From: Crossaster papposus
Taxonomy: Eukaryota; Echinodermata; Asteroidea; Velatida; Solasteridae
Length of the DNA stretch: 64,000 bases
Assembly: GCA_037893245.1 (NCBI GenBank)
Contig: JBAIAA010000095.1
Coordinates: 1,054,001 to 1,118,000 of the forward strand
Reading direction: 5' to 3'
Part shown: positions 3,401 to 63,535 of the stretch, one piece after another
Layout: each line of letters starts with the position of its first letter
How positions within the stretch are numbered: position 1 is the stretch's first letter
Position numbers and translations under genes: made by a program
Notes under the pieces: generated by a model
What the model was told of the DNA's origin: nothing
The model's database searches: none
Seen by the model: the letters and a program-made list of their open reading frames with translations, nothing else

Positions 3401-6400
3401 CCAAGCAGACAGAAAGACGGACTAACAAACAGGCCGAGTACGCCTAAACACATAAAAACAGCCAAACAGAAATGCAGAAACAAACCAAAAACGAATTATA
3501 AATGCGTGCATATAAAATGATAGAGTACCATGGCCCAGATAGGCTACCGTGTTTAACTTATGGTTCGAATCCTGCGAGGAGCGTGGTGTTTGTGCCCTTG
3601 GGCAGGACACTTTGACTACTGCCTCACTCCACCAAGATGTTATTTGGTACCTGTGAGGGTCGAAGCCGATTGGCTGCCGCGTGTTTCATTACCTAACGAA
3701 CAGGGTAATGATAAATAACTGCAAAGCGTGTTGAGATCGTCGATATGATTGAAAGCGCGCGTATTTTCTTGTTTATTTTGTAAGCCAAGATGATTGCCAA
3801 TGAGAAGTAATCTCGGTCAAGAAAGGATAACGAAAAATATTACACTTTAAAGTTCAGGTTAAAACTAGCTCATTGGCATTAAGCTCAAATAATCGGGGAA
3901 AGAAACTATTGTTGTCCCTCAACCAATAATTTTTGCGGGCGCCCATGCACGGTCTTCGGGAGTCAACAGCTGTGCGGCTCCCGTAGTACCGACAGACAGC
4001 TTGCCCTCTCCCGTCCCCTGCCCCATCGATTGGTAAGCAGAATTGACCTTTGACCTTTGAACTTTGCAACAGCCTATCTTTAAAAAAAAATGATATCAAG
4101 TAAAAAAAAAAATTATGATGTATAGAGATAAGCGTTTTTATTTAAATAATCGGAAATTCCAGTCGCAATACAAAAGGTTGTCATATGTGACCTGTCACCA
4201 CAAAATGAGACTAAAGTCGCACAATGTGATTCAGAGATAATTATGGCCATCCAAAGTCAAAATATGAAGGGGTGGTCAATTTTAAGATTTTGCGTAATTT
4301 GGAAATCCCAAGTCCTATTTTACATATTCCTATTTTTGGGGTGAGATCAGATGATCGAAAACCTCTTAAGATGTTCAAAGTAAGTTTTCACACAAACACG
4401 TTTTGTGAAACCCATGACTTTCTAGAGCGCTGTAAAAAGTATTTATCGCAAAACCCCCAAGTGTTATATACCATTGGAAAGCTCTGTTTCTCAAGAATTT
4501 GAAAATACCAATATCTAATTTTCAATATTTTCGACTTTACTCTCATTTTGTGGTGACAGGTCACAAACAATTAATAGAGTTCGCATCGTGCTATTTGTTT
4601 GTGAGTTTTGTTTCTGAGGAAAAGCCCTGGATAGAAACTCGATGCTTCCAAAAACGAGCTTTCGTGAAACTCCAAATCAATTAAAAAAAAAAAAAAAACC
4701 ACTTTTCAATAATCTCCCCACGAAGGAAGCCTTTTAATCAATCATTGATCCGTTCCCGAACCTCGACCGGCACGACCTAAATAAAAAAAACGCAGGCAAG
4801 GCAGATGATGATGATACCTAACAAAACTGGCCTGTAATTAATGACATGGGAACAACAGAGCGAGGTGAAACGATTCTGTGGCGACAAAGAGTTGCCGTGA
4901 AGACCTCGGATGGTGGCGGTAGGTTGCTGGGACGAACCGCCTCGTTCATACGGGGGCCGGGGGCGCCGATGCTTTATTGAACCCGTCTCTGCGTTGAAGG
5001 ACTTGGTGCATGCGCCATGCGGATAAGTTTGAGATCCTGTGGCTCCGATCTTTTGAAATTCAGATATACAATACAGATACGGATACTACAGATACAGATA
5101 CATATAAGAAAGTCCCCAGATAGTTTTGGGTATAACAATCTCAACTCACACCTGAGGTGCGCGGGGTGCGTACGAGTTCCCCAGTCCCTATGTTCCCCAA
5201 TCCCTATGTTTCCCGATCCCTATGTTCCCCGATCCCAATGTTACCATGACCCCTATGTTCCCCACTCCCTATGTTCCCCAACCTCTATGTTCCCCAATCC
5301 CTATGTTCCCCGATCCCTATGTTCCCAGATCCTTATGTTCCCCGATCCCTATGTTCCCCGATCCCTATGTTCCCCGATCCTTATGTTCCCGGATCCCAAT
5401 GTCACCCTGATCCTTCATGTTTTCCGATCCCATGTTCCCCGGTCCCTATGTTCCCCGATCCTAATGTTACCCAATCCCTATGTTCCCCAACCCCTATGTT
5501 CCCTGATCCCTATGTTTCCCAATCCCTATTTTCCCCAATCCCTATGTTCCCCAACCCCTATGTTTCCCGATTCCTATGTTCCCCGATCCAATGTTCCCCC
5601 ATTCCAATGTTCCCCAATCCCTACACTCTCAAAACATGTATTAATATTTTGTTGGTTAAGAAAGTTGGTAAAATGTTTACTATAAACAATGTATTTGTTT
5701 TCTTCCCAATTTGACCAATGTTGGATACATTTAACCCAACGTTGAGCAAAATCGTTAACAATTTTGTTTAACCAACTCACTGTTGTGTTGTTTACCTGGT
5801 AACCAACGGTTGAGTAACATTGTATCAGCGTTGGTATAACTGTTGGTTACCAGGTGAATAATCTACCTTATTGCTTAATCTACAGTATTGGTTACCTTAA
5901 CGCATTTTCTTTTTTAGAGTTTTTGTACTTTTTGGCAGCCAAAGTAAATTTAATTTAATTTAATAACACCCGTCTTTTCCTGGTATTTTATAGTTTTCAT
6001 GATACTTTCCTTAATTTTCACAGTAAAAAATTCACACTGCAAGGTCTAAACTACAGTAACCAATGTTTTACAACAAATTTAACCAGTTCGCGCCGGGATT
6101 ATTTTTCAGACATTGATCGGGCCGCGCCCATTGCGTTTCCACGAACTTCGATCCGCGGCGAGGCGGGTTTTAGGCCGGCATCCGTGGGTATCCACTCTGA
6201 TATTTCCGGCCTCGTTCCCTGCAAGCCGGTCGCTGCATTACATAATTTGCGGCCTTGCTCGTGACGTGTTTGTCTGTCATCAATTTAATTGAAAACTCAA
6301 CCAATTTGGTTTACAATAAACTGACCAAACAAATGGAAAGTTCAAGTGACCTTAAAGGTAGGCTACACCATTGGCAAATTATCAGAAATGGGTGGATTTA

Positions 6401-9400
6401 TGGGGGGCTGTATTTTATAGTAAATATCGTTTAACTGACCTGTTTGAAGTTTTACAACGATGAATGCTGAGAAAAGCAAGAAAAAACATTGTTTGTTTTC
6501 AACTGGCGCCAAGCAGTTTGTTGTGTTGTTCTTGTTTTTTTCGCGAATTTTGTCTTTTCAATTTGATTTTTTTGAACAATTACTGGATATTTAGCGCAAT
6601 CATTTTGCTGGGTGCCCAACATCATTATTTACTTTCAAATAAGTAAGATATTTCATAATAATTCGGTAGTAATTTTTTTTCGATATCTGAAAATGTTGTA
6701 TCCTACCTTTAGGACTGGTCAACCGGTCAACCAAATTCATCGCAACCCACGAACATGGTTAAACCATAGAGAAAGGAAACCAGTTTACCAACTACTGGGT
6801 TCAGGTTTTACTGTTTAAAATAACCAAAAGTAATGTGACCAAATAATTTGTAATTGTTTTACCAATGTAATGTTAGGTCTGGGGCCAATTTCATAGAGCT
6901 GCTTAAGCACAAAATGTTGCTTAAGCACAAAAACCCTTGCTTAATAAATCAGATAAGGAGCCCAAAATTCCATGCGATTGTTACGCTAAGCTAACAACAT
7001 CCAAGTACCAATCACAAACAATATACATCACAATGGAGTTGTGGCTGGTAAGCTGGTTTTACTAAGCAAGAATGTTTTGTGATGCGATGTAATTAATTCG
7101 GTTAACACAAGGAACTTACCCAAGGCACAAAAGCATGTTATGATGATCACAAACAAAATTAAGCTCATGTCATTTTAATAGGCTAGGGCCCTATACATTG
7201 TTCATGCGTGGTGCAGAGGCCTGTAAATATACAATTAATTAATTTCCCATCCTGTGTTCAAGGTCTATAAGGAGACAGATCCGTTTTAGTTGACCCATAG
7301 AGCTACTATATCACCCACTGTCTGATCAGAGCCCAGCCTAATTACAATCCGATCAATACTCTGGACGCTTTCGGGCCATTGTATTAAAAAACTGGATAAC
7401 GAAGTCATCCTTCGATCGCGACGCTCTATAGAGATTAACCCAGACCGTCTAAAACACAGACACATACAATCCATTTTTTTAATCAAACAACATGACCACA
7501 AATTCCGTTCTCGGGCAAAAAAACTGGGTCCGGAGTTGTTCATTATGGTTTGATGCGTCGACCAGTTTATGACTGGTGTACTATACGGACAATTTCTAAA
7601 TTACTCTCTAAATAAGCTCGCTCTCAAAACGACTGAGTTTTGTTTATAAAACCACTAAAAAAAAGAGTTAAATTGAGTTTTCAGTGTGAACATTATTCCA
7701 AAGATCACTCTACTGAGAAGAGTGAATGTCCACTGTTTAGAGGAGCCCAGGAGAACAGCTCTTTATTTTAGAGTTTGTCTTCATATAGCTAGCTCAGAAA
7801 AACGAAATTTCAATCTTTTTTGAGTTTTTTTAATTTTAACATTATTCCAAAAACCACTCTAGAAAAGTAAATGTTCACTGTTTAGAGGAGCCCAGGAGAA
7901 CAGCTCTTTATTTTAGAGTTTGTCTTCATATAGCTAGCTCAGAAAAACGAAATTTCAATCTTTTTTGAGTTTTTTTAATTTTAACATTATTCCAAAAACC
8001 ACTCTAGAAAAGTAAATGTTCACTGTTTAGAGGAGCCCAGGAGAACAGCTCTTTATTTTAGAGTTTGTCTTCATAATTATAGCTAGCTCCGAAAAAAATA
8101 ATTTTCACTCTTTTTTGATTTTTAATTTGTTTTTTTAAGAGACTAACCTTTTTTTAGAGTGAGCGTTACACTAATTTACATTTTAGAGAGTATTAGTGAA
8201 ACTGAGGCTATCAGTGCTAAGTCAAATTGATTAATTGAAAAAATTATCCTCTTAACAAAACACAGCTTGGGGACCGACGGCAATCGTTGTAAATTGATAC
8301 AATTTTTTTCTTTTTTTGACAACCATGTACACCGGTTGCTGTGATTCCACATAGGATACTAAATTTAAGAAAATTGGGTCAGTGTTTAAAAACAGTCCGT
8401 TGGAAATTGATACAAAATCTCACTTTTCTTGAAAACTTTTCTTGGAGCGGTTATGTCCACGCAGGAAGAATAGTCTCCATTGGAATACAATTATGAGAAA
8501 CGTCACTGCAGAAACGCTTCTCAGATTCAAATTTGTTGAGATAAAAAAGGATATCTTTTTCCTTAACCACAGTACTTCGAAGTGAAAAGTTTCAAAAAAT
8601 GCCTTATACTATCCAAAGCTGCTATACTTCTTACCAAGTAAGTATTTATTGCCAATATTTTTTTGGAGTAATTACCAAACGTATACGATCCCTTTATGGG
8701 AAAGTATTCCATAATAATTCAGTCGTTTTGTTTGTAATGTTTGCGAATGATGTAGCCTATAGGCCTACTAATACCTTTAAAGTGATGATATAAAACGCGT
8801 GATTAAAATAACAAATTGTCTGGTTAGTAGTTACAGAATTCATGCAATAAACACAAATGTTGCTTTTAAAAATGGTATCAAACTTACCGTTCCGGTTCAT
8901 GTTCACCTCCATGCACTTTCTGAACCGGCAGGCCTGGCACTGGTTGCGCCGCGTCAGGTCCACCACGCACCGCCCTCCCTCCTTGCACACGTAGGCCATG
9001 TTGCGCCGGACGCTCCGCTTGAAGAACCCACGGCAGCCGTCGCAGCTGAAGACCCCGTAGTGCTTGCCGGAGCTACGGTCCCCGCAGACCTGGCACAGTA
9101 CTTCGGGTTTCTTACCGCCGGGCGGCGGCGGTGGGCTGAGGACCGGGTAAGGGTGCTGGGAAGCTTGGGGAATTTAAGCGGTTAAAGAGATCCAGAAATT
9201 GAGTATGACAAGGATACATGAACCCTCAACATTATTATACGATTAAAATTAACATCAGGTAAAAATAAACAATTATCATAAAACCAAATACACAAAATGT
9301 ATTTATTTATTTAAGTTTGTTATTTCCTATATATTTTTTTAATTTTTATTACGATAGAAACATCGGTTTCTGGTTTTGTTTTTACAGATGCCCTGTTCGT

Positions 9401-10740
9401 GATATATGCGCCCCCCCCCCAAAAAAAAAACAACAACAAAAAAAACACGTTTTTTTTCTCTAAAAAAGAATAGATCTATTTTCAATAGTTAGGGCCTATA
9501 GTTATAATACAATTATTTTACACATTTTTAATTATTGCATTTAATCTTGCATTTTTCAATCTTTTCCTATAAGCATTATACCGCATACATTTAGGCCGTA
9601 TAAGATCGACCCTATAAACCAGCCTAACTGCTTTTCTATGTTGCTATGCCTTTCCGAAATTTGAACAAAATCACCCCTGCAAACAGTAAAAACATATTGG
9701 TCATTTTTAACCAAAGTAGTGGTCGAAATAATAATTTTTCTTGTTTAAATTGACCAATAAAATGGTTGGACACATATCTATCAATCAAGCGATTATTTCA
9801 ACCAATCTGTTTTTAGGGTGTGTCCTGTTATATAAACTGTATGTAGGCCTACAAATGCCCTTAATAACTGTCTGTATAGGCGCACGATCTATGCCCCTGT
9901 CCTATACAAACTGTTAATTTAAGATCTCTTAAATTGTTAATTTAAGATCTCTTTAGACGTAGCCCTAGTATTATTACTTAATCAAAACTACTAACATGTA
10001 TAACTCGACCGCAAAGCATGTTACGTTTTAAAATGCAATCCGAGTCGAACTTACAATGTCATCAACTTCATATTTTGTTGGACAGAACAATAATGGTATA
10101 GTCAAAAATTTTGACTGCTGCTTTGTTCGGTTATATACAACATGAAACACATTATTTGGACTCAACGTGTTTATACGGCATGCTCACTATACGAAAACTG
10201 GCAAGTTTTAGTTTATACCCGGACAAAAAAAACGAACATGAAAAAGAACCATATTGTTCGTTAATATCACTGTATAGTGTATATTTTAAAAACACATTTA
10301 TTAGGCTTGTCACAATAACATCATTTTTATCAAACTAAACTTCCCTGACAACAAATTGTTAATTTAAGATGCCGTTTCCAGAAAATTCAAATTTAAGGCA
10401 AACAAAAATAATGAATATTATTGTCTGAAAGATACATATCGTGTAGGCCTATACATGTATTATATACTAACACATGCATTTTCTCTCAGATTAAACAACA
10501 GTCATTTCTTTCTCAAGTCTGGAATACAAACAAAAAAAGGAAAGGAAAAAAAACAAAAACAGATGTTTCACAACATTATTTTCGACTAAACCTGGATTGC
10601 GGCATTCAAACGTACCAAAAATAGGCCTATTTATAACAATAAACAACCCACACAAATACAAGTAAGTTAAACCAACTTAAAATGTAAAAGTAACTTAAAA
10701 CACCAGGTTTTTATTTTTTACCTTGATTTGTTTCCTCCAT
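178..10740 (-). CDS. NR2E-group nuclear receptor, six-exon gene model
   Basis: Predicted ligand-regulated or orphan transcription factor acting in the nucleus. Exons on the minus strand are 10740-10722, 9163-8888, 3180-2827, 2026-1766, 1146-970 and 419-178. Every junction has AG/GT signals and phase 1, and the six pieces give one open frame of 442 codons plus a TAG stop. The DNA-binding domain is at about residues 30-95, the C-terminal extension AVQHERAPR at 99-107, a proline-rich hinge follows, and the ligand-binding domain runs from about 220 to 442. The C-terminal half, with stretches such as [10 protein letters not shown] and [10 protein letters not shown], matches what is known of PNR (NR2E3). 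The P-box CDGCRG does not, so an NR2E6-like receptor is the main alternative. The 442-residue length is normal for the group. It lies downstream of the collagen gene on the same strand, with no sign of shared function. The 5' UTR and promoter are undefined. Confidence 0.9.
970..1146 (-). CDS. Nuclear receptor exon 5, ligand-binding domain helices 7-9
   Basis: Encodes residues 304-363. It begins [20 protein letters not shown] and ends [14 protein letters not shown], the helix 8-9 region conserved in NR2E receptors. Splice sites are ttcttcccacgcag and gtatgttt. The glutamate codon at the next junction (G from this exon, AG from exon 6) restores the family motif FKPE. Confidence 0.92.
1766..2026 (-). 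CDS. Nuclear receptor exon 4, ligand-binding domain helices 3-5
   Basis: Encodes residues 217-304. The stretch [18 protein letters not shown], followed by [18 protein letters not shown], is the ligand-binding-domain signature (helix 3 to helix 5) and is very close to the known PNR and TLX sequences. The invariant lysine/glutamine positions of the coactivator groove can be recognised (VKWA; DQ.ILLEE). The acceptor is tttcttcacag and the donor gtgaag. Confidence 0.93.
2218..2430 (+). mobile_element. SINE-1 (tRNA-derived), copy 1
   Basis: Contains an A-box (TGGTGTAGCGG) and B-box (GGTTCGAATCC) for RNA polymerase III, followed by a shared body (GGATTGGGTTTTCAGTCCCT, CCAGGATATTCTTCTGGGGT). In intron 3 of the receptor gene. 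Confidence 0.82.
2827..3180 (-). CDS. Nuclear receptor exon 3, C-terminal extension and hinge
   Basis: Encodes residues 99-217. It begins with AVQHERAPR, the C-terminal extension conserved in NR2 receptors, and splices directly to exon 2 across a 5.7-kb intron (acceptor tttcgcag). The rest is a low-complexity hinge with [12 protein letters not shown], then a hydrophobic stretch around [16 protein letters not shown] that probably leads into helix 1 of the ligand-binding domain. The exon is locally GC-rich, unlike its surroundings. The donor is gtgatg, which is weak but in phase with exon 4. Confidence 0.85.
4186..4565. mobile_element. TGTGACC-clan MITE, type a (nuclear receptor intron 2)
   Basis: 380 bp with long inverted ends beginning TGTGACCTGTCACCACAAAA and ending with the complement. 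Inside the left repeat is AAAGTCGCAC. About 80 bp from the right end is the core TATACCATTGGAAAGC. No coding capacity. Confidence 0.85.
5178..5626. repeat. 17-bp minisatellite
   Basis: About 25 imperfect copies of CGATCCCTATGTTCCCC in receptor intron 2. Variants affect mainly the first half of the unit (CGATC, CAATC, CAACC). Because 17 is not a multiple of 3, open frames across it have a 17-residue repeat and are artefacts. Confidence 0.9.
6079..6312. mobile_element. CAGTTCGCGCC MITE, copy 1
   Basis: Begins TTAACCAGTTCGCGCC; the inside has GGCGGGTTTTAGGCCGGCAT and GGCCTTGCTCGTGACGTGTTT, shared with the four other copies. The right end is decayed and its position approximate. Confidence 0.7.
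6352..6718. mobile_element. Family-B repeat (AAGGTAGG...ACACCATT ends), copy 1
   Basis: Starts AAAGGTAGGCTACACCATTG and ends GTATCCTACCTTTA. The interior has TTTTATAGTAAATATCGTTT and CGGTAGTAATT. Other copies are at 25549-25930 (inverted), 39805-40232 and from 63853 to the window edge, with single-end matches at 31563 and 52473. Confidence 0.75.
6893..7080. mobile_element. GGGGCCAATTTCAT MITE, left part
   Basis: Starts GGGGCCAATTTCATAGAGCT and carries the AAGCACAAAA.TTGCTTA motif of the family. The matching right end is not recognisable. Confidence 0.65.
7672..8150. repeat. 145-bp tandem repeat, three copies
   Basis: TTTAGAGGAGCCCAGGAGAA occurs at 7736, 7881 and 8026, a constant 145-bp spacing. 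The second and third units are almost identical, the first more diverged. In receptor intron 2. Confidence 0.9.
8160..8880. other. Receptor intron 2, unassigned part
   Basis: AT-rich sequence with no recognised repeat except a weak family-B-like stretch (8640-8770: CCATAATAATTCAGTCGTTT). No splice-compatible coding segment was found between exon 3 and the zinc-finger exon; direct joining of the two preserves the family motif. Confidence 0.5.
8888..9163 (-). CDS. Nuclear receptor exon 2, complete two-zinc-finger DNA-binding domain
   Basis: Encodes residues 7-99. A short proline run precedes the first finger. Zinc-binding cysteines fall at residues 30, 33, 47, 50 (finger 1) and 66, 72, 82, 85 (finger 2), with normal C-x5-C-x9-C-x2-C spacing in the second. 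The first finger reads [19 protein letters not shown] and the second ends [12 protein letters not shown], as in the NR2E group. The P-box, which selects the DNA half-site, is CDGCRG; TLX has CDGCAG and PNR CNGCSG (from memory). The whole domain sits in a single exon. The donor is gtaagtt. A second possible acceptor 8 bp inside the exon (at 9156) would not keep phase with exon 1. Confidence 0.93.
10722..10740 (-). CDS. Nuclear receptor exon 1 (start codon, six codons)
   Basis: Encodes MEETNQ plus the first base of codon 7, followed by the donor gtaaaa. I chose it because its phase (one base left over) fits the acceptor at 9164, giving an alanine codon across the junction and an open frame into the zinc fingers. 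Exon 2 itself has an in-frame stop just upstream of that acceptor, so the start must lie in another exon. The bases around the ATG (GTTATGG) are acceptable but not strong. The upstream sequence has no obvious stop for several codons, so a longer N-terminus is possible. This exon is far less certain than the other five. Confidence 0.55.
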
Positions 10741-13312
10741 AACTCTGATCACAAAGTCGATCTGTTCAAACAACAAGTGGAATTCAATTGTACAAGCGAG
10801 GCCTGGTCCGGTCGGTCCCGGAGAGTAACTGTACCGTGAACAAGACGGAAGCAACGGACCAACTAATTGACTCGGACGCGCTTTGTTTCGGTCCAGTGAT
10901 CTGCAAAGCTCGGCGTCATCTGATCATTTGAACGACCGAGTCCTCTTTTGCGTGTATTTGTGTAGTATCATTTTATTGATAATAATCAAGGTATTATGGA
11001 ACAATATTGGCGCGGGAAGTTTTTTTTGTTTTGCATGTGTGGTGGTCTTGCTCCTGGCGCGCGCGCCGCGCGTGGTAAGTTATTGACGGCTATTTCATGA
11101 AGTGACTAATATAATATGGGTAAAAACCGACCCTTATATCAAACTGTGCTTCAGTAAACAAGGGGGGTGGGGGTTGAGGGGAGGGGTGGAGGTTGAGGGG
11201 AGGGGGTAGGGCACAAGGGAACCACCAGTCTGTTCCTCTCTTATGCCCCCGACCCAAAACAGTAGAGCCTAAAAAGTATATACAGTCGAAATCTACCCTT
11301 TCAACTGCAGAAGAATATATCACTCGATAATGAACAAAATATATAACTATCATTTACTTTTACGGCACTAGACTCGTGCGTGACCCTTGCAAACTGATCG
11401 CAGATGGGTCATCTAATACTATTGATGCAACAGCCGTCCGATAAAGTTAGGCAGACTGAAAACGCGTGAGAACTCGACAGGTGGAAGATCCGTGTGTTTT
11501 GAGCGGGAATCGCTTTGCGCGATGCCGTTTATATACTATATACGCAGCTTACCGATTGCCACGAAAAACACACAAGATAATTGACCACATTTTTTGTTTT
11601 GTTTTTATATTTTTATACATTTTGGGTAAATGTTTACAGTTGCTATCACAGGTTGATCTTGAATTGGGGTTAAGAGAAGTATAAACGTTAGGCCTTTTGT
11701 CAGCGTTGGTGATATCGTGTGATCTGGCACGCGTTGACTTATTGATGGAAGGTTAGGCCTATTATAGCCGAGCTAGCCGCTGTTTCAGATAGGGTATTAA
11801 TTTATGAATTCTTAACACAATGGAATACATAATTATGGATAGATACAATATAGGCCTACACCCAATTGTTTTGAAAGTGTTTAAAGTTAGAAGATGCTAG
11901 AAAAACACCCTTGCTTTTCTTGTAGTCTGGTTCCTTGACTTCCTTCAGACGAAACAGCAATTTATAGACGTCAGGAAATTACCAGGCTAGGCTTGCACCC
12001 ATTCAAAGATATGTAACCGTGCGGCAAATACATTTCTGGACTAACAAAATATAAACAATCTGGGAGCAATGTTTGCAAGTAGTCAGGTTTTTCCAACGAT
12101 TGCCGGCTGGGAATCGTTAAAAAATTAATATAAAAATTACACTTTTCTTGAAAACTAATAAACTCTAGGTAACGTGATTGCCCATAATAATTTTTGACTG
12201 TTATTTACTTACACCCCATTCAGGTAAGGTATATATTTCATAATAATTCAGTAGTTTTGTTAGTTGGTGCTTGAAAATGTGTAGAACTTTAATCGGCCAC
12301 TGATTTTATTAATGAACTCTAGAAATTAGCTACAAAAGAGCAACTGACAAAATTTTTAATTTTGCGCACACGCGCAGCAAGTCAACAGTCAAACCCACAA
12401 TTTACATTTGGTGTATTTGTCGGTGTACATCTGGCACGATATATTATCGATATTGATCCTGATGTTTGGGCGGGGGAAACATGGCTACAGCACAGTAATA
12501 TTTGCCGGATCGATAACCGGGCCACATGCCAAACACAGTCATTAATCACTACAATCTCAATCCATGTTATACCAAGTGCCCATCACGTGTGTATATGTGT
12601 ATGTCCTCGATCTCAGCCAAGTCAACATCGATCAAGCAGTGCCTGCATAATAGGCTATCATGGCTATGCCAGGAATTAGCATCAGCTGGGAACTCCTCCG
12701 AGCTAGAGGTGATCTTGCGACATGAAATCGCCATCGGTCCAGCGCTACACTCTTTAACTTCATTCTGGCTAGCCTTTAAACAAGGCCACATGTCTGATAG
12801 AGGCCGAGCGACTAAAAAGAGACTAATCGCGAAAACCTGAGTGAACGCCAGTGCGAATTGCCCAGACAAGTGGCCTTTATCAATCTGGTTTGGATTTCTT
12901 ATGTTAACCTTTGTTTCCGACTGGAATCGCTACCGAAATGGTAGCGTCCAATCAGCGAACGTATCTCCGCGTGCCGGCGTCAGCTTATATTTGAGTTGGA
13001 CTAGTTCATTTTACAAACAGGGAATGTCCAATCATGTCACTTACAATATTTAGCTCAAATCATTAGTTGCTTCCTAATTTATTGCAATTTTGCATGTAAA
13101 ATAGATTTGAATGTGATATCTTGTATTTATCATTCATATATTCAACTCAGAAGCAACATTTATTTACGTTTTTTTACCTTTTCTTACATGCTTTGATATT
13201 GAACGAATCACGAACGAAACCAACTGGGAGATCGCCGTTCTGATTGGGCGTATTGGCATGCTAATATGTATCTATGAATAATTCATGCCGAGCAGTGAAA
13301 CCTACATTGCAA

Positions 13313-13395
13313 AAGGCCTCGTGACATTCGTCACTCGGTCGCGCGGGCGGGTATCTAGACTCATCTCAGCCGCTTAGCCAGAGTCACGAGGCCTT
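13313..13395. other. Perfect 13-bp inverted repeat in the receptor upstream region
   Basis: AAGGCCTCGTGAC (13313-13325) and GTCACGAGGCCTT (13383-13395), with a 57-nt GC-rich loop (CGGTCGCGCGGGCGGG). About 2.6 kb upstream of the receptor start. Could be a cis-element, an RNA hairpin or the ends of a very short element. Confidence 0.6.
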
Positions 13396-14038
13396 GTCAA
13401 AAGGCTACATTCTATGACAGAGAGAACTCTTCATTGTGTCCGCGGAATCTCGAGAATTCTTTTCAGATTTATAGTTCGCGCTCTGCAGTGTGTGTGTGAA
13501 CAACGACTTACGACTGTTGGTCCTGGTCTTTTATAGTCAATACGTCACGGTTGTTTCAGTTCAAATATCCATTGTACCTACTGGTAACAGACACTGCAGC
13601 TTATCAAACTGTCGACTATAAATGCATTGTATAGGCTTATTTATTTTAAATTAGTAGTAGTCTGTTCTTAAAGGGATCGGGACGGTTTTTTCCCCGTCAC
13701 ATCTCTCGCTTTATCTAAAGCGCATTTGCCTGTAAAGGTAGTCATAGTAACGTGTTCAAGCTGAACCAATGAACTCAATATAATATTGATTGCTTTATTT
13801 GGCAAACAAAACGCTTACATCTAAATAAACTTTCGCATTCATTGTCGAAATGAAAGTATGCGATTTAGCTGTGTAAGAGTTTCGAGCACAATAACGCGTA
13901 CGGCACGAAGCCAATGTGGTGTTTTTTTCGTCCCTGCCCGATTCCGTGAGTTTTTCACAGAATATTCTTCTGGGGATTCTCTAGTCCATTACTGTCTGTG
14001 GTAACAGTTAAAAGTAAAAGTAAAGTAAAAAGTAAAAT

Positions 14039-14488
14039 TGTGACCCACTCTGCAAAAATAAGTCTGATGTGTTAAAAATGTTATTTGTTTTCAATTTTAC
14101 AGTTGGTCAGAAAAAGCAGGAAATAAGCTTTCATTTGATATATGGCACAACTCTGTAGTGTAATGCATTGGTCTTTTACAATTTTGGGAAATTTGCTTTT
14201 TCTCAGTTTTAATCAAAATGTCTTTGAAAAGAAATGAAGATTTACAATTGTAGTGCTTCATCAGATGCTATGGTAAGAGAATGACAAAACCTGTATTAAA
14301 TTTAATTTAGGGATCCAAACAATCTTTTCAATCGATCAGAACTGAAAGTATAGGTGTCGGGGAAACCAAAATGCCTTAAAACTAAAATATTATTTGTTGA
14401 AAGAAAAATCACCTCCGAGACAATAAACAGCCCTTTACGTTAAAATGTATTTTGAGACATCAGACTCATTTTTGCAGAGCGGGTCACA
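14039..14488. mobile_element. TGTGACC-clan MITE, type c
   Basis: 450 bp, in the spacer between the genes. Ends are TGTGACCCACTCTGCAAAAA and its complement, with ATGAGTCTGATG-like sequence further in. Nearly the same element recurs at 33231-33665. The core appears reversed near the left end (GCTTTCATTTGATATATG). Confidence 0.85.
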
Positions 14489-16379
14489 ATTGTCGTTTAA
14501 CACAACACCGCGGTAATGCTGGTAGAAATGCTGGTTATGAAGTATCAAAATTCGCAAACTGTCGACTTCCGAAGGACAAAAGAGCAGCAATAATAATGAT
14601 TGGGAGACCCAGTCCAACTTGTCAATGCAGTTCACTCTGAGCCATAATGTTCTATTTCTGCAAGCTAATATTACGAAAGCGGCGAATATAAACCAAATCA
14701 AATCTTAGAAAAAAGAAAGAAAAAAAAAGGCAAAACAGAAAAACTACATAACGTAGGTTATAATACACAGCTGGAGTACACGTTGGGCTTATAGAGCAAT
14801 AACAGGCCTTTTGTTTTTATTAATCACAGTGACGTCACAGTGAACGTGGAACCTAGCTCCATAGTTATATACATAGACTAACCAGGCCCGACGAAAATAG
14901 GCTAATCTTGTCTGCTGGGAAATTGATGTAAACTATTCCTAAACTAATAATTGCTCTATTAATATTTGTGGTTTGGTAAATTAAATCCCAGAAAGGACTG
15001 GCGCGAATTAATGTCGTGAGTTAAATAATAACATCTTTTGCTTTTTAAAACTAAGAGGATCTTGACTTTTTTTGGAAAGAGGTTTTGTGTGCGAGGTAGG
15101 AGCAAAGTTTACAGATAGTTTGCTTGAGTTAAAGTAAACAAGTTGTTAAGGTATAAAAGCTAATATAAGTTTTAACTGTAAATTGAAATGGAGCAAAATA
15201 TTATTTAGTTCTCATATGGCTAAGTTGCATTTCGTGAAAATGAAATACATGACGAAGTTAGTTGATGATATAGTACTGCAACTACATAAAAATAACTATA
15301 GAGGAATAAACTATATTTTGAGATTTGAAATACTCTGCAGAATTCTACATGCACTCATATTTGTCGTTTCGTATTTGTTAAGAATACAAGTAACGAATGG
15401 CATTATATACATGATATGTTAAATGTTTTAAAGCCTGAACGAAAATGTCTATATAATGACTTCGAAAGTTGAATGTGGTCCCACTTTACGGTCGCTAACT
15501 GACACCACTTTTGGAATTGTTGAAGTAAAGAAGAAGAAAAAAACACGACTGGAGTATAAAATTGTCGACACCACATCAGAATAAAAACAAATTCAAATCA
15601 AAGCGAAACGCTTTAGAAGAATGAACAGGCTAGGCCTGCGTGGAATTCAACGATTCGACACAGGTGTGGATTTGTGGAATCTATAGTTTAATATTAACAC
15701 CATAATTATTTGTTTTTGTCGTGGATTTTACGTTACTGACAAACACCATTTTGGCGTCGTTGTTTAATGGTCAAATATTTAATATCAATAAAGATGCACA
15801 TGATTGGTTGGTAAAAAGGGGCAAAGCAATAAACAGTTTCATATACTTCTAGTTTTCCTTTTTTTTCTTCCTTTTTATTTTGATGTGGTGCCGACTGAAA
15901 GAATGACTTTCGGTTTAACGCTATACATGTATAAAGCTGTACCATCGAGCCCGATCCAATTATACACCAAATATACTCCGCATAAAGGATAATATAAAAC
16001 AAAATCATTTGTTTGAAACGAACAAATACATATAAAAACTATTAAGGGAATACATGCAAATTAAAAAAAAATAGAATAATAAAAAAAGCAACCTGAACTT
16101 TTCTACAGCATCTAATTTGCTACTGCCCGGGAGATTGATCTAGAACTACAGGACAACAAAAACTGGGCGTATTAGGCGTTAAATTTATCACTCAAAAAAA
16201 TTATAATATACAAGCCATTACCGGGCCATCTTTAAGATACATTCGTACATGTTAAGTGGTCAGTAATTAGGATAAAAAGGTAATATACATTGTGTCTTAA
16301 GAAAAAAAAGTAACCAAGATTTAAATGCTTATTACTCAGAAAATATTAGGCTTAATGAATAATAGTATAACTATCACCA

Positions 16380-16622
16380 GGGGCCAATTTCATAAAACAT
16401 GTAAGCACACAAATTTGCTTAGCACAAACAAGTCTTGCTCAGTAAAAACAAGTTATCAGCCAAAACTCCATGTGCTTTTCATTCAAAGCAAAAACCAGCT
16501 GAATACCAGTCACAAACACTAAACATCAACAAACATTTTGGTTTGTAACCCGGTTTTTTTCCAAGATGAATTTTCATGCTAAGCAAATTTTGGTGCTTAC
16601 ACGTTTTATGAAATTGGCCCCA
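16380..16622. mobile_element. GGGGCCAATTTCAT MITE with both ends
   Basis: About 243 bp with inverted ends GGGGCCAATTTCATAAAACA and its complement. In the spacer between the two genes. Confidence 0.8.
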
Positions 16623-18035
16623 GTTTGGTTGTGACACGGGTAAGCTTACAATTGTGTCATCAACGAATAAGTGTAAGATTGAAAAAAACCAAAGATGTTT
16701 TATTTGGAACTTATTGGTCTTTTTCTTTTTAAACATTATGAACACCGTGCAGATAAGACGAGTTTTAATCTGGTGCAAAGTCATTTTTAATGTCATCCAG
16801 TCAAACCAATGTTGTTCGGTCATCCATAAAATTATGACAATACTTGGTATTAAATGAAAGAGTACGCGATGACGCAACCGATAGTGATTATTGCTTCATA
16901 ATAAACAGTGTATTTTTTTGAGTAAAGAGTATTTCAATCTTGATTTCTTTTTTTTCCTTCAAAGAAAAACTGTAGATGATATGAAATTAAGTTTCTAAGT
17001 AACTTAGGCATTGTGGTAATGTCAACAACAACAACGACGACGACGAATAATAGGAATTATTGAAACAATAAACGCAGGGAGATATGTTAAACCCAAAAAT
17101 AAAAAGCTAGGGGAAATAATTCAGATTTTTAACTATAAGACGGAGGGTGACAATGTCAAGATACAGGAAGTTAACTAAGAAAGTGGGCTGAATGGATATC
17201 ACTTCAGGATAATCTTAGATAGATACAAACAATTGAAAATATTTTTAAGAAGAAAAAAAATACTTTCATTGAAAGAGAGCAGTGTAAACATTAGAAAAAA
17301 ATAGTATTTTATTTAAAGGCAGCATTATCGAGGTCACTTTGTGCTGATAGCGTTCACATTTGTTATTCCTTGCAATGCCAGAGATTGTTTATTTTACTTT
17401 TACATCAAGCAATATTTGTTTTCTTATTTTTTTCCTAAACACACAAAAGAAAAACCCTTATTTCTAAATTCCTACTTTGCTATTAATTAGAAAAGAAAAA
17501 TTATTATAAAACAAAATACCCAAGTTTAATAAGATTATACATACACTTGAAAAAAGAAAAAAGATATCTTGTAGAAAAAAAATGGCAAGAATGTTGGACT
17601 ATAAAAGAAGAGAAATTCCACTAAATTTGAATGTCTACCTACGGTATTGGACCAAATGTACATATGCCCTGTGCAGCAATAATGTATGCATATATAAGTG
17701 TAACTATGTTTAGAATTTTGGTCAATTAAAGATAAATTTCTCTAGAATCTAGTGTAAGCAGGTTCACTACCTTAGAGAAAATCTAAATGAACTCTAGATG
17801 AACTCCTTTGTCTAGTTTACTCGGGTAATAAATGTGTGTATGCATAAATTTAGCTTCTAGCAAAACACCCTTTGTTTTTCTTTTCTTTAGGTAAGTTAAT
17901 AAAAAAAAATCACAAACACGAATAGCACCATTGTTTTTTTCAAGACAAAAAGTCTCTCTAACCGACGTCCATGGGTGACAGGTAAAAGAGACAGGTATTC
18001 CTAAACAGCTGCTAGGCGTGGCCCTTGTTTTGTTT

Positions 18036-62374
<44,339 letters not shown>

Positions 62375-62559
62375 CTGTAACAGATTGCAGTGAATGCTAC
62401 TACTTACAATGATAATAATAATAATGGGCTAATTATTCTTACTGGCAGCTGAGAAGCTGAATTGCGACGGACGTGGTTACAAGGAGTCGATGGCATGTAG
62501 ACAGCCGCCATAGGACCCGATATCTGACCACGGAGCACAACCAGAGATTGATTGAATTT

Positions 62560-63535
62560 TGCTTACAATTATTATCCCTGTTTATCAGGAACGAGATTAT
62601 TTCTGCAGCAGCTCGAGATCAGCGCAATATGTGACCTGTCATCACAAAATGAGCGTAAAGTCGGCAAAATCAAAAATTGAGATATGGGTATTTCTAAATT
62701 CTGTGGAAACAGAGCTTTCCAATGGTATATAACACTTGGAGCTTTGATACTCAATATTTGTTTTCTTTTTCTTTTTTAGTCTTAATAAAGAGATTATGAG
62801 AAAACGGGCATTTCTTGCGAGAAATTGTGTGAAAGGCATAGAAAGGCATAGTCAAAATTGTCTCAAAAAGTTATTTTGTTTTTATCTGATCGTCCTGAAA
62901 AATTGGGAATAGATTGTTGGGGATTTAGTCTTTAAAAAAACCATATAATCTCAAAATCGACCACCCCTTCAAATTTTGACTGGGAAATCACTCCGTGCGA
63001 CTTTACGCTCATTTTGTGATGACAGGTCACATATGGTCTCTACCTTCACAGGTACCCATGTATACCCCTGGGTAGAGAGAGGCTATTTCAGTAAAGTGTC
63101 TTGCCCAAGAGCACAAGCACCATGTTCCCGTCAGGATTTGAACCCGTATACCATCGCAAATGAGTCAATGTGCCCTCTGACGTCACGTGTTTACATCTGT
63201 ATTCAAATGTGCCCAGCAGTATGCGCACACACCGTGTTTTACATAAAATTTGCTTAAAGATTGACGTCGCAGGTCAGATCACCATTGAATTATGTGACCT
63301 CTGATGTCATCTCTTAACCAAATGTATGTAAAACATGATGCGTGCGCATACTGCCGGGCACATTTAAATACAGATGTAAATAGAGGCCACATTGTCTATA
63401 CACCTGGGTAGAGAGAGGCTATTGCAGTAAAGTGTCTTGCCCAAGAACACAGGCACCATGTATCCGTCAGGATTCGAACCCGTGTACCATCGCACACGAG
63501 TCGAACACCGTAACTATTGGACCACAGCGCCCCAC
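62560..63535 (-). mobile_element. Two SINE-2 copies, one split by a TGTGACC-clan element
   Basis: The split copy occupies 62560-62629 and 63032-63175, the second copy 63395-63535. Both end with GTACAC/GTATAC and ACCATCG words from the tRNA-like head. Between them is unassigned sequence with a near-inverted pair around CAGTATGCGCACAC (63210) and GTGCGCATACTGC (63341). Confidence 0.7.
62630..63031. mobile_element. TGTGACC-clan MITE, type a, inserted in a SINE
   Basis: 402 bp with TA on each side. It splits a tRNA-type SINE copy: AGATCAGCGCA lies before and TGGTCTCTACC after, and these are joined in the unbroken copy at 39267. This is direct evidence that the clan is (or was) mobile and duplicates TA. 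Confidence 0.88.

Follow-up and report, generated by a model that had tools for sequence, protein, structure and literature searches.

The 64-kb stretch of Crossaster papposus DNA analysed here (C95:1054001-1118000, hereafter the window, from a genome of 1.02 Gb in 1841 contigs) carries 17 copies and two fragments of miniature inverted-repeat transposable elements (MITEs) that belong to one clan with TGTGACC tips. Beside their inverted repeats, these elements display two conserved blocks, on one end only and at a near-fixed distance from the tip: an outer block, GAGATAT, at 47-56 and an inner one, the core, which reads GCTTTCNAATGRTRT inward from the tip and starts at 83-84. It is reasonably probable that these elements have an asymmetric end on which an accessory, enhancer-like site lies internally, a function suggested by the conservation and placement of these blocks.

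The clan and its families

An earlier note on the window had described a 17-copy clan with TGTGACC tips, and this description holds. A BLAST search with 12 hand-picked elements as queries recovered the 17 copies and two fragments, TGTGACC occurs 29 times as against 6.6 expected (a count reached by none of 100 shuffles), and a paired-end finder came up empty both on three shuffled versions of the window and on its reversed sequence. Where at least six inverted-repeat types had been claimed, there are seven in the window, namely T1 (four copies and a fragment), T2 (two), T3 (three), T3x (one), T4 (four and a solo end), T5 (two) and T6 (one). Loci fetched from the same genome add T7 (L032), T8 (L044, 157 bp, palindromic), T9 (L036), T10 (L037), T11 (L031) and the core-bearing end of T12 (L034, the two ends of which are mismatched). 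In keeping with MITEs, the 12 type representatives measure 157-440 bp and have inverted repeats, most tip pairs examined are flanked by 2-bp duplications, and ends of the clan number in the thousands; the non-coding status of the elements was judged solely from open-frame length within the window.

4186..4565 (+), T1 copy (T1a), core 4468-4482, 83 bases from right tip
14039..14488 (-), T3 copy, AT duplication, core 14127-14141, 88 bases from its tip
25312..25340 (no strand assigned), solo T4 inverted-repeat fragment
26489..26912 (-), T2 copy, core 26573-26587, 84 bases from tip
29265..29376 (+), T1 right-end fragment, core 29280-29294
32835..33228 (-), T3x copy, TT duplication, T3-like core 88 bases inside the tip at 32835, extra inverted core-like site 32897-32911
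33231..33665 (-), T3 copy, 2-bp TT junction common with T3x, core 33315-33329, 84 from tip
37212..37626 (+), T5 copy, TA duplication, core 37528-37542, 84 bases from tip
42034..42289 (+), T6 copy, TA duplication, core 42191-42205, 84 bases from tip
43302..43723 (+), T5 copy, AA duplication, core 43650-43664, 59 from tip (shortened spacer)
43979..44299 (+), T4 copy, deletion near left, right end cut
46539..46841 (+), T3 copy truncated on the left, core 46777-46791, 50 from tip
46876..47288 (+), T1 copy, AA duplication, core 47190-47204, 84 bases from tip
49306..49639 (+), T4 copy truncated on the left, with a core-like site 77 from tip
54700..55095 (-), T1 copy that has lost one tip, core 54774-54788
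55208..55644 (-), T4 copy that has lost the tip of its core end
57627..58052 (-), T4 copy, TT duplication, diverged core 84 bases from the tip at 57627
60090..60509 (+), T2 copy, AA duplication, core 60411-60425, 84 bases from tip
62630..63031 (-), T1 copy, TA duplication, core 62714-62728, 84 bases from tip

For the first core form the window is a hot spot, with five exact core-end patterns as against 0.35 expected from the genome total (about 14 times denser), which is part of the reason why the clan was noticed; a second core form, GCTTTAAAATRATRT, is absent from it (0.14 expected). Judging by titles and the opening lines of abstracts, no paper was recognised as describing the clan, which may already be in Repbase.

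T1 splits into two sub-forms, which are adjacent in the genome-wide listing of places with tip and core, and six near-identical T1 copies of 287-288 bp lie on C130. A near-perfect palindromic clan member of 151-157 bp with a weak core, which looks like two core-bearing ends placed head to head, was seen at L044:1175-1331, L026:1501-1657, L043:1235-1385 and L059:2153-2309.

A one-sided core

Allowing at most two mismatches, the core motif has 14 matches in the window, in 13 of the 17 copies and one fragment. The T3x match among these is the extra, inverted site, while the regular T3x core has 16 of 18 letters as in T3 (a likeness reached by none of 5000 shuffles). The four T4 copies carry a diverged form, that of the copy at 57627..58052 having 17 of 18 letters as in the T4 core. 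Across the seven window types the best core 15-mer scores 74 (40 dinucleotide shuffles: mean 67.0, standard deviation 0.99, maximum 69), a margin that narrows when both strands are allowed (shuffle mean 69.5, maximum 72). With the seven types anchored without gaps at the core-bearing tip, the best 15 columns, within 83-101, score 87 of 105 (1000 shuffles: mean 57.8, maximum 66), even with T3x placed by its other end, which if anything lowers the score. The same anchoring at the left end gives 60, which 232 of 1000 shuffles reach.

Pairwise identity was compared for the core ends of the eight types with the core at exactly 84, and amounts to 0.93 at the tip, 0.87 at a conserved AAA within the repeat, 0.69 in the block at 47-56 and 0.73 in the core, as against 0.42 in the spacer at 57-84, 0.34 at 100-130 (conservation drops after about 101) and a background of 0.27. 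At the block and core places of seven left ends it is 0.36 and 0.33, so that by anchored scoring and pairwise identity alike the left ends have neither the GAGATAT block nor the core. The core is thus more conserved than the rest of the interior, and the types did not prove to be unrelated families with a core no better kept than its surroundings, the outcome that by the earlier note would have refuted its claim. Its remark that transposase binding alone leaves the core unexplained was apt. The core is one-sided, at a near-fixed distance and accompanied by a second block.

The core starts at exactly 84 in the best copy of eight types (T1, T2, T3, T4, T5, T6, T11 and T12, with 11 of 15 core letters matched in T11 and 14 of 15 in T12), at 83 in T9, at 85-87 in T7, at 85-86 in T10 or a near relative and at 88 in T3x. 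Individual copies depart further: 59 in the T5 copy at 43302, 50 in the T3 copy at 46539, 64 in a T1 copy (L039), and 101 and 111 in two T6 copies (L029 and L030). Short types keep the core (T9 at 202 bp, T10 at 235 bp, T6 at 256 bp). Families mostly have their own variant of it, namely CCAATGGTAT in T1, CAAATGATGT in T2 and the window T6, CATTTGATAT in T3, AAAATAATGT in T4 and CTAATGATAC or a near form in T5, and in a comparison of tables the core does not follow the type-specific middle of its own repeat. A hairpin or inverted repeat around the core is strong solely in T8 and weak in the other types, and the only Rfam match in the window is a transfer RNA (tRNA), which means that no known RNA family covers the core at gathering score.

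One-sidedness would also suit regulatory signals of a gene starting at one end, and the T1 core, read inward, contains CCAAT and TATATAA. The blocks could then be promoter or RNA-processing signals of an ancestral transposase gene, kept by descent and without a role in mobility. This is unlikely, however: CCAAT and TATATAA are not retained together in other types, a promoter would have no reason to persist in short MITEs of many families or to keep its distance from the tip, and the drop in conservation after about 101 is difficult to reconcile with it.

Spacing genome-wide

In the whole genome, the pattern tip-N-GCTTTCNAATG with the core starting 76-106 bases from the tip occurs at 5656 places (2824 + 2832), as against 334 (169 + 165) at 45-75 and 52 (25 + 27) at 107-137. 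The reversed-pattern control gave 0, 0 and 0 + 1, respectively, and by eye about 30 of the 47 rows with letters among the 52 places contain a second, nearer tip. Among the first 100 places listed at 76-106, the distance is 84 in 45 and 83 in 22, i.e. 67 at 83-84; by family, as assigned from seven letters, 34 of 54 T1 and 11 of 19 T2 places have 84 and 19 of 27 T5 places have 83. The second core form behaves alike, with 2231 places (1069 + 1162; control 0), the first 100 of which have 83 in 35, 84 in 34 (69 together) and 92 in eight. In a 200-kb sample drawn from six contigs at fixed, round coordinates there are 10 core-like sites (at least 13 of 15 letters). Upstream of three of them an exact tip lies no more than 250 bases off, at 84, 83 and 245, the third site also having one-mismatch tips at 84 and 77. 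The genome counts show that the spacing rule is general, although copies within a family are not independent of each other.

The eight ends of the second core form with a spacing of 92 all lie on C13 (214745-216705 and 586472-593342), several of them about 0.93 kb apart, where a piece of the clan seems to have been caught in tandem arrays.

Several observations weigh against an accessory site at a set distance. The T8 core is weak (10 of 15) and mostly at 81-84, a T2 copy with a TA duplication (L024) has no core at the regular place, and in T9 (L036) a core-like site in another part of the element is the better match (14 of 15). 'Exactly 84' applies to the best copy per type, and among the 32 fetched and window elements with core scores of at least 12 the core lies at 83-84 in only 13 and at 81-88 in 19, although most of the fetched elements were chosen for unusual length (264-294 bp) and many are consequently deleted copies. 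Genome-wide, 334 places have the shorter spacing, and the counts are dominated by a few families (T1, T2 and T5 among the 100 listed). Spacing is not fully independent evidence, being inherited among the members of a family. The analysis linked neither a transposase nor an autonomous copy to the clan, which leaves binding as an inference. Finally, the spacer is weakly alignable in six of 28 type pairs, so that the core ends are homologous and their constancy may partly be plain descent.

Taken to its limit, this last point leads to the view that the blocks have no function, all families stemming from one ancestor with a core end that was slower to decay or was passed on by a recent common donor. 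We give this slightly less credence than the regulatory signals, for the left ends of the same elements are blank at the block and core positions, and the family-specific core variants count against a recent exchange among all families.

Inverted repeats and the pairing of their arms

Each end of a clan element carries an inverted repeat, some 34-37 bp long, in which type-specific letters separate three conserved spots. With both arms of a single copy counted for each of 12 types, per-column conservation is 96-100% at the tip (1-7), 92-96% at AAA (18-20) and 67-83% in an AAGTCG-like box (29-34). The claim of the earlier note that the types belong to one clan sharing tip and inner box is upheld by these values, while its idea of a swapped, still-paired middle needs to be qualified: the middle is type-specific and paired, but not free, since it holds the AAA as well as a G at position 24 that is 88% conserved. 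Identity between types in the middle (8-27) is 0.46. The two arms covary by type, as the note had proposed to test, with a middle identity within type of 0.858 as against a mean of 0.487 and a maximum of 0.692 in 10000 permuted deals of arms.

The note had gone on to propose that a single transposase may recognise no more than tip and inner box, the middle being kept paired by gene conversion or by a need to fold back. The agreement of middle arms within types is what this scheme would predict, but it ignores the conserved AAA, and a diverged end with a matching transposase for each type explains the data equally well, so that a single enzyme reading tip and box is not needed. Pairing fades past the edge of the inverted repeat (left-right identity is only 0.45 at 36-55), and arms are mismatched in eight of the 12 representatives (T3, T3x, T4, T5, T6, T9, T10 and T11; the count is ungapped, and the figures for T3x and T9 include length differences between arms). 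In T3, T4, T5, T6, T9, T10 and T11 the two arms of the one representative copy disagree at 1-6 of the 20 positions of the middle, and in T3x the core-side arm is four bases longer. Stable arm mismatches exist, and both full window copies of T3, like those of T5, have one mismatch in common. The element at L025:1501-1782, flanked by TA and with a TA duplication, has arms that by eye match at 11 of 20 middle positions. Arm pairing is therefore not obligatory. Neither fold-back nor gene conversion is favoured as the pairing force, diverging families with family-specific recognition would give the same arm pattern, and of the explanations weighed here we regard the tip-and-box scheme as the least probable. 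The types appear to be related families whose inverted repeats have diverged.

A possible mechanism

The preferred reading, an asymmetric end with an accessory site, would account for these features as follows. The elements would be non-autonomous DNA transposons of one old clan, split into many families, and their inverted repeats the primary binding sites of family-specific transposases, which would explain the agreement of arms within a type and the differences between types. As accessory binding sites, the one-sided blocks would be contacted either by a host DNA-bending protein or by some conserved portion of the transposase, their set distance allowing the core end to fold into the transposition complex. 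They would thereby act as an internal transposition enhancer, the copies mobilised being those that keep the blocks. Since a MITE has no other obvious selectable function, blocks that are conserved, one-sided and spaced, in elements that can otherwise barely be aligned, suggest a role in mobility, and because the core does not follow the changes in the type-specific middle its reader is probably either a host protein or a conserved domain.

A bolder extension, which we put forward tentatively and hold to be rather doubtful, is that the clan combines a shared platform with private addresses: the same tip, the same contact points and a one-sided enhancer at eight helical turns (84 bp), with middle letters that are family-specific on both arms. 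That 84 equals eight turns of 10.5 bp is arithmetic, not evidence. If true, families would share the geometry of the complex and yet avoid moving each other's copies.

Target sites

Exact 2-bp duplications flank 30 of 41 tip pairs (permuted flanks: mean 12.8, maximum 21 in 2000 trials). The 41 include three palindromes unlike the clan (L052, L056 and L062), while pairs tipped by TGTGCCC or CGTGACC were left aside. TA was duplicated in 16 cases, AA in nine, TT in four and AT in one, and in 53 of 60 strand readings an A precedes and a T follows. The elements thus insert at A|WW|T sites. None of the 41 pairs has a 3-bp duplication.

Neighbouring elements with a single common 2-bp junction were seen at 33228/33231 in the window and at 1782/1785 in L025. 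An inserted element together with its flanking CA-WW-TG offers the preferred site anew, which would favour such neighbours.

Search for a mobilising transposase

Genes of the ISL2EU type are common in this genome, with at least 150 matches each for DDE_Tnp_4 and YqaJ and, by eye among the matches listed, at least 12 pairs of the two within about 3 kb (e.g. C635:1465724/1467358, C5:2435513/2438368 and C161:165669/164008). Two fetched loci (L068 and L069) hold only inner parts of such gene pairs, and at five gene places (on C3, C5, C9, C14 and C18) the nearest listed clan end is at least 38 kb away, a distance of low power because it was read by eye and for the GCTTTAAAATRATRT core form alone. 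A YqaJ gene on C26 was rejected as partner of a clan end (L035): this end lies between the YqaJ match and a transposase-like frame on the opposite strand and may be a nested insertion, so that no link follows.

No superfamily tried fits the duplications. Strict Tc1/mariner fails on its TA-only duplication (TA in 16 of 30), ISL2EU on its own (AT in one of 30, though the flanking A and T agree) and PIF/Harbinger on its 3-bp TWA (none of 41). IS481EU, a candidate by its TG..CA ends, was dropped since its duplications are given as 4, 15 or 25 bp in the excerpted source (PMC10045372). In viral contigs, two core scans found no locus and a looser one found 23 with scattered spacing; these are taken as chance matches, as only one of the 23 has an upstream tip and its sequence shows no MITE.

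Other features of the window and the genome

A second inverted-repeat family of roughly 155 bp with TGTGCCC-like tips occurs in the window and elsewhere. On C3, a series of elements at about 344-497 kb recurs some 200 kb on, at 546-693 kb (e.g. 344042/546098, 361668/563081 and 417294/617473), as a large duplication or an assembly artefact. The window itself resembles an animal gene region: by eye, several minus-strand frames read as collagen, with several clan elements sitting between them, and one open frame reads as a nuclear-receptor-like zinc-finger sequence.

63208-63362, TGTGCCC-like family (also L045:997-1152, L051:112-266 and L057:2987-3142)
39273-39674, 52162-52458 and 56659-56949 (-), examples of collagen-like Gly-X-Y frames, by eye
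8760-9173 (-), open frame with nuclear-receptor-like zinc-finger sequence, by eye
2213-2364, 19690-19841, 27576-27666, 51100-51190 and 59104-59255, tRNA-like interspersed repeat, by eye like a short interspersed nuclear element (SINE)
44626-44698 (-), tRNA model match
18744-19243 and 24667-25170, tandem arrays of 11-bp and 12-bp units

Comparison with known systems

The P element and phage Mu have internal enhancers, accessory sites that lie away from the cleavage ends. Such enhancers are known in a few well-studied transposons. Here thousands of natural copies from many families reveal the positions that have been retained apart from the tips, on one end only and at a set distance, a rule that could be tested with designed mini-elements. 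The architecture of the end would also offer a way to group MITEs of families that look unrelated.

With respect to target sites, PIF/Harbinger elements make 3-bp TWA duplications and ISL2EU elements, of the PHIS superfamily, duplicate AT at A|AT|T, as stated in the part of PMC4482050 consulted. ISL2EU and the clan have in common a 2-bp duplication flanked by A and T, but AT, the ISL2EU duplication, is the rarest in the clan. Among MITEs, mutation of mPing and mPong has shown that internal sequences affect mobility (PMC9921582, in excerpt); in the clan, the corresponding role would fall to a block that lies at a set distance across many families.

The closest working parallel, as far as the excerpt of PMC7827188 describes it, would be the half-DR transpositional enhancer in the left end of Sleeping Beauty. 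In both cases an extra conserved internal site lies on one end only, beside symmetric inverted repeats. The Sleeping Beauty site is known to raise transposition, an effect that by analogy the clan core may have as well. However, Sleeping Beauty inserts at TA, unlike the clan with its TA, AA or TT duplications, and its half-DR resembles its own binding repeat, whereas the clan core does not follow the middle of the repeat beside which it lies.

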